DNA of 64,000 bases from positions 1-64,000 of the forward strand of contig JALSPK010000172.1 in the NCBI GenBank assembly GCA_026986005.1, written 5' to 3'. The position numbers and the translations under genes were made by a program. Numbering within the stretch: the first letter of the stretch is position 1; each line of letters begins with the position of its first letter. Source of the stretch: Saprospiraceae bacterium (GTDB taxonomy: Bacteria; Bacteroidota; Bacteroidia; Chitinophagales; Saprospiraceae). Below the pieces are notes generated by a model. That model ran no database searches and was not told the DNA's origin. It saw only the letters and a list, made by a program, of their open reading frames with translations. This document shows positions 1 through 9,741 of the stretch, piece by piece.

Positions 1-3000
1 AAATTCTTTTTTTGTATTTTCCTTTTAATCGCACCATATTGGAATTGAAACTAGGGCATTATGTTTTTGACTTCCCTTAGTCATTCCTCTTTTAATCGCA
101 CCATATTGGAATTGAAACATCACAATACCGTTTTTTCTCTCTCTCAAGAGGTCTTTTAATCGCACCATATTGGAATTGAAACTATAGATGACAACTTACC
201 TGAGCGAACACCGAAAGACTTTTAATCGCACCATATTGGAATTGAAACATAATTAAATTTTTCATGATTTTGTTTTTTTAGTTTAACTTTTAATCGCACC
301 ATATTGGAATTGAAACTCTTTTATTAAAGTGTAAGTTCTTACTTTAAAACTCTTTTAATCGCACCATATTGGAATTGAAACATATCAGAAAAGTTTAAAA
401 AACAATCTTTATCAAAGCTTTTAATCGCACCATATTGGAATTGAAACATGTGTTTTCATAATATTATTTATTATTTTTAAATAGCTTTTAATCGCACCAT
501 ATTGGAATTGAAACAATAACTAGATAAATCTACGCTATTACCGTCCTCCTTTTAATCGCACCATATTGGAATTGAAACTTGGAAGCATTTAGCTTGAAGT
601 CTTGCTTCCTCCTGCTTTTAATCGCACCATATTGGAATTGAAACAATGATATAATCAATAAGCCCTTTTTCTCCGTACCCTTTTAATCGCACCATATTGG
701 AATTGAAACAAAGTACAATATTTGATATAGTTCTGTTTCTGTATCTTTTAATCGCACCATATTGGAATTGAAACAGCTTTACATAATCATCTGCTTCCCA
801 TTTTGGCATTCTTTTAATCGCACCATATTGGAATTGAAACAAATTACATACTATTAGAGAAGATAAGACTAATCGTCTTTTAATCGCACCATATTGGAAT
901 TGAAACAGGCATTATAAACAATTTTTTCTTAGAGAAATATCAGCTTTTAATCGCACCATATTGGAATTGAAACAACGATAACCAAGTCCGGTAGTACAAT
1001 CACACTTAGCTTTTAATCGCACCATATTGGAATTGAAACCCTGATCCATTGATGCTTAAAAACGAATCCTTCTTCCTTTTAATCGCACCATATTGGAATT
1101 GAAACATAAATAATGACTTTCGGTAGCAATAATTTCGTTGCTTCTTTTAATCGCACCATATTGGAATTGAAACGAGTTACCGCTACTAAGAAATTCGACA
1201 TAGCCCTGCTTTTAATCGCACCATATTGGAATTGAAACAGAAAACAAATTTAGCAATGATTTTTATACATTTGCTTTTAATCGCACCATATTGGAATTGA
1301 AACTCGTAATACATCTTGTCTCCCCATTTCTCTAATTTCTTTTAATCGCACCATATTGGAATTGAAACAGCTAGCTTAGAAACTGCAGGGTTTACTAGTA
1401 ATGTTCTTTTAATCGCACCATATTGGAATTGAAACAGGAAAAAAACAATATCTGACAGACGCGGATATTATCTTTTAATCGCACCATATTGGAATTGAAA
1501 CTGTACAAGCCGTCTTCCATGATTTGTCTTGCATTTCTTTTAATCGCACCATATTGGAATTGAAACTAAACAAGCCATCTTCCATTACTTGTCTTGCATT
1601 TTCCTTTTAATCGCACCATATTGGAATTGAAACACAAAAGTGTGTAAATTCGATATTAGCATTGGAGACTTTTAATCGCACCATATTGGAATTGAAACAA
1701 GCAGAGGGGCGTTAAAAGTAAAAAACGAATTTGGCTTTTAATCGCACCATATTGGAATTGAAACAAATATAATGAACGGTTTGGAAGTACACATAAAAAG
1801 GCTTTTAATCGCACCATATTGGAATTGAAACAGATTAGCTTGAGCGTATAACGCATTGAACAACAACTTTTAATCGCACCATATTGGAATTGAAACTATT
1901 TAACCCAGTTGTTACTGATGGCCCAGCTGCTAACTTTTAATCGCACCATATTGGAATTGAAACTTGATTTTATTTTATATTGCTGTATAAAATCCGGGTC
2001 TTTTAATCGCACCATATTGGAATTGAAACCCGTTAATCTTAATAGCCCCTACTCTAACGTACTGACTTTTAATCGCACCATATTGGAATTGAAACTTGGG
2101 AAAATAAAAGGTATAATGACATTACGTTAAAGCTTTTAATCGCACCATATTGGAATTGAAACAATTCAAAAACAAATTGCCGAGCTATACAGGCAAACTT
2201 TTAATCGCACCATATTGGAATTGAAACAAAAGCATTAGAAATATGAATGATGAACTGATTTTACTTTTAATCGCACCATATTGGAATTGAAACGAAATAT
2301 CACTACCGAAATAGAATATTTTCTTTAATTCTTTTAATCGCACCATATTGGAATTGAAACTCAAGTGTCAATACATATTCTTGTGCATGCACAATGCCTT
2401 TTAATCGCACCATATTGGAATTGAAACTTCGTACAAATCTCGCATGAGCGGAATAAGTGCAATCTTTTAATCGCACCATATTGGAATTGAAACTATACAT
2501 ATTCCCCATTTGTTTTAATTGCCCCTACTCCTTTTAATCGCACCATATTGGAATTGAAACAAGGGAGCTATATCTGTCAAATCTCCTGATTTTGCACTTT
2601 TAATCGCACCATATTGGAATTGAAACTGCAAAATTTCGCTGATGGACTGACTAATTATTATTTCTTTTAATCGCACCATATTGGAATTGAAACAAGGTAC
2701 GTTTATACCTTTATTCCCTGCAATATGGCTTTTAATCGCACCATATTGGAATTGAAACGTGTTCGCAGCTCTTACAATGTATTTACTCATCTAATCTTTT
2801 AATCGCACCATATTGGAATTGAAACAAAAATGTTAATGTCTGATTCGTATAAGTTCTAAAGCTTTTAATCGCACCATATTGGAATTGAAACTTTATTGGT
2901 AAGCTGTCACAATGCTCGATTGTGTTCCTTTTAATCGCACCATATTGGAATTGAAACCAGGTACATAGTCCTTAACCTTCAACAATTTTTTAATCTTTTA

Positions 3001-5341
3001 ATCGCACCATATTGGAATTGAAACTGTAATATTTTTGTACACTAGTTTAAAAAATGTTTTCTTTTAATCGCACCATATTGGAATTGAAACATAATAAATA
3101 CAGAATTAGACAATATAGCTTTCTTCCTTTTAATCGCACCATATTGGAATTGAAACTTCAAATCAGCTATTTTATTAATAAGCTCCTCTACAGCTTTTAA
3201 TCGCACCATATTGGAATTGAAACAGGTTTGGCCATTTCTATCGTTGTGTTCCTTTTGTCTTTTAATCGCACCATATTGGAATTGAAACCTGAAACTTTGT
3301 ACAGTGAACCCCTTATTTCCAAATACTTTTAATCGCACCATATTGGAATTGAAACACAAAAGTGTGTTAATTCGATTTTGGCATTAGAAAACTTTTAATC
3401 GCACCATATTGGAATTGAAACCCTGATATTGATATTGCTATAGGTTCCTCTATTTTTCTTTTAATCGCACCATATTGGAATTGAAACCCATTTTGGATTT
3501 TCTTATAAATCTCAACAAAAGTGCTTTTAATCGCACCATATTGGAATTGAAACAGCATAGAAATAATGTCAGTACCTAATTTCACATAACTTTTAATCGC
3601 ACCATATTGGAATTGAAACGATCCAAAAGTTTTGGATTTGATTTCTTACCCGGTCTTTTAATCGCACCATATTGGAATTGAAACGATGCAGCTGCATATT
3701 GATAAGCAGTACCGGTTTCAACTTTTAATCGCACCATATTGGAATTGAAACTATCGAATTACATAATTACTCATAAACGTTTGATTTCTTTTAATCGCAC
3801 CATATTGGAATTGAAACCAAAATGGAATAAAAATAATTACGCAAAAGGACAGACTTTTAATCGCACCATATTGGAATTGAAACAAGCACAATTACTTCTC
3901 CTCTCTACTCAATCAATCACTTTTAATCGCACCATATTGGAATTGAAACTGAAGAGGATTTGAATCTACTTTTTTCTTTATTTGACTTTTAATCGCACCA
4001 TATTGGAATTGAAACTGTTTTGAATTATTATATATATATCTATCATATCATTCTTTTAATCGCACCATATTGGAATTGAAACAAATTGACATGCTTTTTT
4101 TTGATCCAAATCCACATCCTTTTAATCGCACCATATTGGAATTGAAACTTATTTCCGCCTCTTTGTTTCTCCTTTTCGGTTAAACTTTTAATCGCACCAT
4201 ATTGGAATTGAAACTCGTAAAGTTTCTATCATCCTCTGTCTTAGAGTCTGCTTTTAATCGCACCATATTGGAATTGAAACAATATAATTAAATATCCCAT
4301 ATATATATATATATATATACTTTTAATCGCACCATATTGGAATTGAAACAACTTTTTTATGTGTATCCGTCAAATCACCAATTTTCTTTTAATCGCACCA
4401 TATTGGAATTGAAACTTTACAAAAAAAGGTACGTTTGTCCCTTTGTTGTGCCTTTTAATCGCACCATATTGGAATTGAAACAGCAATTCCAATGCTTTTA
4501 ATTCTTCTGATTTTCCTTCTTTTAATCGCACCATATTGGAATTGAAACAAGGATGCAATTATCTTTTTATCCGTGCCCTTAAACTTTTAATCGCACCATA
4601 TTGGAATTGAAACTATGTGTCTGTTACAACTGTTGTTATTCCTCCATCACCTTTTAATCGCACCATATTGGAATTGAAACCAACAAAAGTGCGTAAATTC
4701 TATACTTGCACTTGAGAAACTTTTAATCGCACCATATTGGAATTGAAACGGGGGTTAAGAGCTGGCACATTGTTGCAGCAGTTTCTTTTAATCGCACCAT
4801 ATTGGAATTGAAACATTGGTAATATAGTTAAAGGATTATTGACTGCTAACTTTTAATCGCACCATATTGGAATTGAAACAAATCAACTCGCAGCGCAAAT
4901 AGGTGTGTCTGCAGCTTTTAATCGCACCATATTGGAATTGAAACTGCATTAGAGTTTCAACAATTTTTTCATTTTCTTGACTTTTAATCGCACCATATTG
5001 GAATTGAAACTCCCAAAATGAAGGGTCGTATCCTTCTTTTTTTATATCTTTTAATCGCACCATATTGGAATTGAAACCTGCTATTTGGATTTGGATTAAA
5101 TAATTTGGCGTACCTTTTAATCGCACCATATTGGAATTGAAACTATAGATGACAATTTACCTGAGCGAACACCGAAAGATCTTTTAATCGCACCATATTG
5201 GAATTGAAACAAAGCATCGGCATTCACTGCTCTTTCTACAAATTTCTTTTAATCGCACCATATTGGAATTGAAACTATTTTAATCCGTATCTTAAAAAAG
5301 CTGGACGAACCTCTTATTCGCACCATTTTTCAAAATCTAAC
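1..5341 (+). CRISPR. CRISPR array, 80 intact repeats, open at left edge
   Basis: Eighty copies of a 30-base repeat beginning CTTTTAATCGCACC and ending GGAATTGAAAC start at 22, 89, 153 and so on to 5246. Spacers are 34-39 bases. I saw no substitution in any of the 80 copies. The ATTGAAAC 3' end is the usual 5' handle of mature crRNAs in type I-A/I-B/III systems, so transcription is inferred to run on the + strand with the leader to the left, outside the window. The only decayed repeat is at the right end (5311), which fits a trailer end. The first 21 bases are part of a spacer, so the array continues leftward. No cas gene is in the window, so the subtype (I-B or III) cannot be decided. Several spacers form families of related sequences; see findings. 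Confidence 0.99.
5311..5341 (+). repeat. Degenerate terminal CRISPR repeat
   Basis: This sequence sits exactly one spacer (35 bases) after the last intact repeat. It keeps the block TTCGCACCAT but differs through its 3' half. Decay of the last repeat is typical of the leader-distal end, and it supports reading the array from left to right. Confidence 0.9.
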
Positions 5342-5643: not shown

Positions 5644-5997
5644 TTAAGTGAGGGCAAACACCCGCACTGCCTCAAGGCTTTCTCCGGAAGGCCTTCTTTT
5701 TTTCAATCTTTCCTGTAAATATATTTTATTGATATTATCTACTTGTATTGCTATTACAAAAGATTTGTTTTTATATATACTATCTCTGAATTGCTTTACC
5801 GCTTTTTTTATAATATTTCTTTTTACATTAGAGATTGAAGTTGTTGATATTTCTTTATACTCTACAATAGTTTTATCATTGATGATCATATCAGGATATT
5901 TTCTACCCGGGATAAAAGTGACCGGCAGAAGTTTTACTTTATATTTTTCTGATAGCAATTTGGCAAATTTTACGTTATTATTAAGTTCTTCGCCCAT
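5644..5997 (-). CDS. Small PD-(D/E)XK / CdiA-CT-like nuclease-fold protein (putative)
   Basis: This is a 117-residue ORF with an ATG start at 5997. Residues about 34-49 read YPDMIINDKTIVEYKE, a PD...ExK arrangement as in PD-(D/E)XK nucleases. The following basic helix (NVKRNIIKKAVKQFRDS) resembles the C-terminal nuclease domains of CdiA-type toxins and of some phage morphogenesis proteins. Activity is inferred from the motif only. The last 20 codons overlap the convergent small-RNA candidate and terminator, so the native C-terminus may have been replaced. The gene stands in a decayed region with no intact neighbour on its strand. It may be a stranded toxin module or the tail of a broken gene. 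Confidence 0.45.
   Translation of the reverse strand: MGEELNNNVKFAKLLSEKYKVKLLPVTFIPGRKYPDMIINDKTIVEYKEISTTSISNVKRNIIKKAVKQFRDSIYKNKSFVIAIQVDNINKIYLQERLKKRRPSGESLEAVRVFALT
5645..5703 (+). ncRNA. Candidate small RNA (promoter plus terminator, no ORF)
   Basis: A well-formed promoter ends at 5638 and an intrinsic terminator ends near 5703. The roughly 58 bases between them have no ORF of useful size. They can fold into one hairpin pairing GAG(G)GCA near 5650 with TGCCTC near 5668-5673, followed by the terminator hairpin. The RNA is antisense to the last codons of the nuclease-like ORF on the minus strand (5644-5997). No known RNA family was recognised. It could instead be a remnant of a lost gene's leader. 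Confidence 0.35.
5674..5703 (+). terminator. Intrinsic terminator
   Basis: AAGGCTTTC and GGAAGGCCTT form a 9-pair stem (one G-T pair) closed by a TCCG tetraloop and followed by CTTTTTTTC. It would end the candidate small RNA and also any transcript reading through from the CRISPR array. Confidence 0.75.
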
Positions 5998-6055: not shown

Positions 6056-6599
6056 CTATAGTGCCTGTTTTTCCGTTGTTGATACGAAAGGTAGGCGACA
6101 TTTTTTATTGATTTGAAAATCCTTCAGGATCTTTTTCAGTAGCTTCGACTTGTTGAAGGACATAGCATCTACCGTTCTATCCATTGGGAGGATAATAGAT
6201 GTCCAAGAAGGGGGGTCATCTACTTTTTTGATTGTGCCCATTGAGTAAATGGTGAGAGTGCCTTACTTTACCATCTTCTTGTGTTTTTTATTCTAACCAG
6301 GAAAGTATGTCTTTGTGTTTTTCTATACGCACCTATTTTTTTGCCACTTTTGCAGAAGATAGAGTAGTTTTGCCTTTGAGTTCATTTACTATTTTATATA
6401 TGTTAGAATCCGTTTTGAATGCTGCAAAAGTAAAAGTATTACATCTCATTTTTTGCAGCAATTAAAGTCTATTGTCTTTGTAGGAAAAAGTGTAGAATTT
6501 TGAATCCCAACCTTCTTCCAATCCATTTATAAATGCCTGTGTATTGTGAAGGAATACGGTTTTGCCAAGAAATCTGTCGTTGTTGATAATTTGATTTTA
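6056..6599 (-). pseudogene. Decayed coding remnants, minus strand
   Basis: Three protein-like fragments lie on the minus strand with stops or lost starts between them. 6056-6241 is a 61-residue ORF with motif LPMDRTVDAMSFNKSKLLKK. 6333-6440 is a start-less frame with FAAFKTDSNIYKIVNELKG. 6462-6599 is a start-less frame with TQAFINGLEEGWDSKFYTF, cut at its upstream end exactly where the relic CRISPR repeat at 6594 begins. I do not recognise a family for any of them. They may be parts of one or more genes of an inserted element. Nothing else is evident between 6001 and 6590. Confidence 0.35.
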
Positions 6600-6697
6600 A
6601 TCACACCATATTGGAATTGATACAATATAAAAAAGAAATCTTGTAAATCATGTCAAACAAAATCTTTATTTCACTCCATAATAGAATTAAAAGTAAC
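6594..6697 (+). repeat. Relic CRISPR repeats downstream of the array
   Basis: 6594-6623 matches the array repeat at 27 of 30 positions, with changes C to A at base 1, G to A at base 10 and A to T at base 28. A 40-base spacer-like gap leads to 6664-6697, a much more decayed copy (CTTTATTTCACTCCATAATA and then GAATTAAAAGTAAC). The orientation is the same as in the main array, which ended about 1.25 kb upstream. Nothing else was recognised from 6698 to the rmlA start. Confidence 0.75.
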
Positions 6698-9509: not shown

Positions 9510-9741
9510 TAATTTTACTAATAAAATATGTAATATTTATCAATAAAATTTAAATTATAAACTTCAATATTTAAATTCGAGCTTTACAAAATTTTTAAAA
9601 TCAAAGATTTCATTTTTATAAATACTAGTTTCAAACCCGAGCATAACAAAGAGCTGATCATAGCAATACATGAATAACTTAAAAAACATTTTAACTTTAT
9701 GAACAAATACAATATTATAAACAGACACTATTAAATATTAA

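Follow-up and report, generated by a model that had tools for sequence, protein, structure and literature searches.

The CRISPR array and its orientation

An 80.9-kb contig, one of 220 in an assembly that is 96.9% complete, supplies the stretch of DNA analysed here (the window, its first 64 kb), which opens with a long CRISPR array:

22-5275, + strand: CRISPR array; CTTTTAATCGCACCATATTGGAATTGAAAC occurs in 80 intact copies, separated by 79 spacers of 34-39 nt

All 80 repeats, of 30 nt each, are identical while the spacers between them differ, so that the locus has the identical direct repeats and the unique spacers of near-constant length by which a CRISPR array is recognised. The window starts inside the array, and the leader side, on the left, has been lost at the contig end. 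In two relatives that carry the same repeat family (L030 and L032), cas1 is followed by the array in the same orientation as in the window. From this order we infer the direction of the array and the age order of its spacers from the leader side: the leader is expected to the left, past the contig end, and the spacers would become older rightward. The array overall is of the ordinary kind, with a neat record of one site sampled repeatedly.

Directly after the last intact repeat lies a decayed stretch, TTATTCGCACCATTTTTC, and a degenerate repeat copy (27/30) was found at 6594-6623, 1.3 kb past the array end. In a small ORF just past the array (5644-5997) the CdiA C-terminal domain (PF18451) was matched only weakly, below the cutoff. 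About half of the spacer at 4281-4319 is a TA dinucleotide run, which is odd for a specific guide.

Three spacers encode the same peptide

The original prediction had drawn attention to four stretches of the array, at 1634-1668, 3356-3391, 3488-3523 and 4681-4719, each of which proved to coincide exactly with a spacer. Three of these were also correctly described as related:

1634-1668, + strand: spacer 25, encodes QKCVNSILALE on the + strand
3356-3391, + strand: spacer 51, encodes QKCVNSILALE, with the same 5' register as spacer 25
4681-4719, + strand: spacer 71, encodes QQKCVNSILALEK and starts 2 nt further upstream

Local alignment scores were 23 for spacers 25 and 51, 20 for 25 and 71 and 14 for 51 and 71, and in five shuffles of the spacers the best chance score was 16 and the remainder were 13.5 or less. 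Over 35 columns the pairwise differences number 5, 6 and 9. When the three spacers are read on the + strand, an identical peptide of 11 residues, QKCVNSILALE, is obtained from all of them, and the score for such identical peptides (54) was well above the shuffled maximum of 33. The spellings vary silently (TGT/TGC, GTA/GTT, TCG/TCT, ATA/ATT, TTA/TTG/CTT, TTG/TTA/CTT and GAG/GAA): summed over the three pairs, 16 codon differences are synonymous and none is non-synonymous, and in simulations of random substitution an open frame with no amino-acid change arose in 0 of 20,000 runs. The three spacers thus carry the same peptide in one frame and differ by synonymous changes. The suggestion that the variation respects codons is therefore borne out by the simulations, and that of purifying selection on one conserved coding site by a codon model in which omega was near 0. 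These results indicate that spacers were acquired on three or more occasions from one conserved protein-coding site, as carried by diverged relatives of the same invader.

Strand of the targeted gene

Reverse-complementing the spacers, as the original prediction did, gives a frame that ends in the peptide IEFTHFC. This antisense frame has no stop in any of the three spacers, but it contains 7 non-synonymous codon differences beside 10 synonymous ones, against 0 non-synonymous differences in the + frame, and the invariant peptide QKCVNSILALE is read from the + frame. A codon substitution model on a star tree gave lnL -68.96 and omega 0.007 for the + frame and lnL -79.58 and omega 0.103 for the antisense frame, which is 10.6 log units worse. 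In a simpler simulation, in which the antisense frame was made to keep all of its observed residues, the + peptide was left unchanged in 3.5% of runs, whereas the opposite simulation, with the + frame constrained, yielded, in 63% of runs, antisense variation like that observed, so that the + strand was favoured by about 18 to 1. Host codon usage did not discriminate between the two strands. Because the third positions of both frames coincide, the third-position bias of the antisense frame is a shadow of that in the + frame. A preference for the coding strand has been reported for type III and I-B systems (PMC8482600); with this strand preference allowed for, the + strand is about ten times likelier or better. 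Since the peptide reads on the + strand, the crRNAs of spacers 25, 51 and 71 would share the sense of the gene's mRNA.

The fourth spacer was thought to extend the same site to a gene end:

3488-3523, + strand: spacer 53, possible upstream neighbour, HFGFSYKSQQK; 11-nt overlap with spacer 71

The shared bases (CAACAAAAGTG, 11 nt) do exist; what is lost is their value as evidence, since 11-12 shared bases are equally frequent among unrelated spacer pairs of the array, which leaves the link of spacer 53 to the others unproven. On the + strand spacer 53 is open in the matching frame, giving HFGFSYKSQQK, which overlaps QQKCVNSILALEK. Accordingly, of the four spacers proposed to hit one gene three are confirmed and the fourth is possible, the overlap by itself being at chance level. 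The proposed gene end (a TGA after THFC) ahead of a new ATG is without support, because both codons lie only on the - strand and the + frame is open through spacer 53.

Other spacers with possible common sites

Further pairs of related spacers were present in the array:

183-218, + strand: spacer 3, pairs with spacer 78; the 1 difference is synonymous in IDDNLPERTPK (+) or SFGVRSGKLSSI (-)
5144-5180, + strand: spacer 78, partner of spacer 3, 5' register common to both
1502-1536, + strand: spacer 23, pairs with the adjoining spacer 24; best frame NARQ(I/V)MEDGL(Y/F), - strand
1567-1603, + strand: spacer 24, partner of spacer 23, 5' register common to both
2494-2530, + strand: spacer 38, weaker relative of spacer 31 (2030-2065), offset 12; VGAIK(I/T)N on the - strand
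2694-2728, + strand: spacer 41, weaker relative of spacer 67 (4416-4451), offset 10

For the pair 23/24 both the codon comparison and the model fitted the - strand frame best, but weakly, and the scores of the weak pairs 31/38, 39/66 and 41/67 were near the chance range. Similar pairs were found in a relative with the same repeat family (G123). Two adjoining spacers there, at 9517 and 9583 (L031; G123:C50), encode an identical peptide, HTIFVNIRCDS, in the sole open frame, with synonymous changes only and a shared 5' register; a second pair from this genome encodes TAA(T/N)ANATQREQ, and both pairs read on the - strand.

The clear pairs, in this array and in those of the relatives, start at the same base, with the exception of spacer 71, which is shifted by two. 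This shared 5' register would fit an acquisition step that is fixed on the 5' side, as by a PAM. No PAM was readable: where related spacers overlap, the bases that precede the spacer start vary (TCC, ACT, AAA, TCT). A coincidence estimate showed that the observed number of same-site pairs could be reached if a single lineage, offering no more than about 800 usable sites, had supplied nearly all of the spacers, and consequently a hotspot is not required. A reading that is unlikely, though worth stating, is that this repeat family takes the identical protospacer again each time that a known invader comes back as a diverged variant, updating an old memory at a fixed site, driven by either a strong sequence-defined hotspot or priming from a partly matching old spacer.

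Search for the target

Neither IMG/VR, INPHARED and PLSDB nor some 85,000 genomes of prokaryotes yielded a protospacer, and none was found in the host assembly, which was searched piecewise. When 78 of the 79 spacers were compared with phages by BLASTN, all matches were of E about 1; the joined peptides had no tblastn match among phages or plasmids, and Pfam, PHROGs and PDB held nothing for the spacer peptides. Within IMG/VR, QKCVNSILA, NARQ(I/V)MEDG and DDNLPERTP each gave 0 matches; the joined peptides gave 2 pattern matches, 0 of them confirmed, GTF(I/V)PLF gave 17, none convincing, and VGAIKxNGxY gave 2, both in unrelated genes. The scan of the approximately 85,000 genomes returned two short non-genes only. 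The antisense peptide, which was expected to mark the end of a viral gene, fared no better: it had 2 chance matches in IMG/VR, which fell only on part of an unrelated gene, in antisense and with a stop-interrupted frame. A loosened pattern, KCVNS..LE, had 6 matches in IMG/VR, one of which, KCVNTLFELENY (L046), lies in a gene resembling the terminase large subunit. It resembles QKCVNSILALEK, but it was picked by the pattern itself and is only a lead.

As the protospacer was absent from all of the collections searched, we infer, and do not observe, that the invader is a virus and the target a phage gene. Spacers commonly lack a match: on average about 7% of them have one in the databases, the remainder being attributed to unsampled host-specific viruses (PMC7308287). 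The array is like those 'dark matter' arrays in that its spacers are unmatched and best explained by unsampled viruses that are relatives of known ones yet too diverged to cross-match; it differs in that the array itself displays the divergence, in three spellings of one peptide.

Effector machinery

The repeat family is present in 17 of 298 genomes of the Saprospiraceae family. In one of these (G176) the array lies beside Cas6b, Cas5b, Cas3b, Cas8b, Cas7b, Cas4b and Cas1b, a type I-B set. G176 and the window share one repeat family, with two mismatches over the 29 nt of core that were searched, and one array orientation, but Cas1 was not found in the 96.9% complete assembly and neither were homologues of the G176 Cas7 and Cas3, the searches for the last two having been run without a positive control and with the array flank missing. 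For these reasons the array was not filed as type I-B.

The array's own contig ends inside the array, and the cas genes seen in the assembly are on another contig (C10 of G000, L076), where positions 2-4649 hold a Cas10/Csm1 gene that runs off the contig end, followed by genes for an ADP-ribosylglycohydrolase (PF03747), a 199-aa protein and Cas6. The best subtype-specific match of this Cas10 was to Cas10a (E 7.6e-115); it has Csm1_B and palm2 domains and an HD domain, and GGDD is visible in its sequence, which identifies it as a type III-A Cas10/Csm1. The ADP-ribosylglycohydrolase is an unusual neighbour to find between cas10 and cas6. No match to the Csm RAMP subunits was obtained in the assembly, and the array contig and C10 both end toward a missing segment. 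Thus, although Cas10/Csm1 and Cas6 at the end of C10 give the assembly a likeness to type III-A (Csm) systems, these genes are not linked to the array, the RAMPs were not found, and the set of three spacers has the wrong sense for RNA recognition of its gene. A type III effector requires a crRNA that is complementary to the transcript. Because crRNAs of mRNA sense could pair with the template DNA strand and not with that transcript, spacers 25, 51 and 71 would, judged by their sequences, be a better fit to a DNA-targeting, type I-B-like effector than to an RNA-activated type III-A one.

Origin of the three spacers

Very probably, the three spacers derive from separate acquisitions at a single site in one conserved gene, made on different occasions from diverged members of a family that is most likely viral and has yet to be sequenced. 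By the age order of the array and the inferred leader side, spacer 71 would be the oldest, followed by 51 and then 25. Each diverged variant may have escaped the older spacer through accumulated silent changes, after which the adaptation machinery would have re-taken the same, probably PAM-defined, site.

The main alternative is that the gene runs antisense and ends in ...IE(F/L)THFC-stop before another gene start, with four spacers whose crRNAs are complementary to its RNA. Such an arrangement would suit the type III-A effector and agree with the preference for the coding strand that has been reported for type III and I-B systems (PMC8482600), the frame is open in the three spacers and biased to third positions (10 synonymous, 7 non-synonymous), and both of the G123 pairs and the pair 23/24 do read on the - strand. 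We nevertheless regard it as improbable: it lies 10.6 log units below the + frame, its third-position bias follows from the coincidence of third positions in the two frames, and its stop and start depend on the chance-level overlap of 11 nt.

Multiplication of a single spacer within the array, followed by drift of the copies, has a precedent in that rearrangement occurs in this repeat family, where identical spacer pairs were found, seven in the G176 array and two in G204. The distances between the duplicated spacers of the G176 array (L068, G176:C11) are irregular, which points to rearrangement or duplication there. Drift would ignore codons, however, which none of the 20,000 simulations reconciled with the observed differences, and copy-and-drift is further argued against by 80 identical repeats standing between spacers that differ at 5-9 of 35 bases. 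For spacers 25, 51 and 71 it is therefore refuted and can be given very little credence, but duplication may still explain the pair at 183 and 5144, with its one-base difference. Resemblance by chance among AT-rich spacers might account for the weak pairs 31/38, 39/66 and 41/67, which score near the chance range, but as an origin of the three spacers it is the most improbable of all: scores of 23 and 20 stand against a shuffled maximum of 16, and identical peptides scoring 54 against one of 33. Chance is likewise refuted for the pairs 23/24 and 3/78.

Repeated sampling of one site of a diverging gene thus remains the preferred reading, in which differently spelled spacers with an identical peptide are the record of a single invader family whose diverged relatives were met repeatedly. 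Spacer variants that respect codons in this way make it possible to deduce, for a gene of an unsequenced virus, which strand and frame it is read in and that it is under purifying selection. They also show which DNA strand is addressable by the crRNA, which bears on the use of type I versus type III effectors. Where homologous spacers from different genomes share a 5' register, the preference for particular sites during natural adaptation would become open to direct testing.
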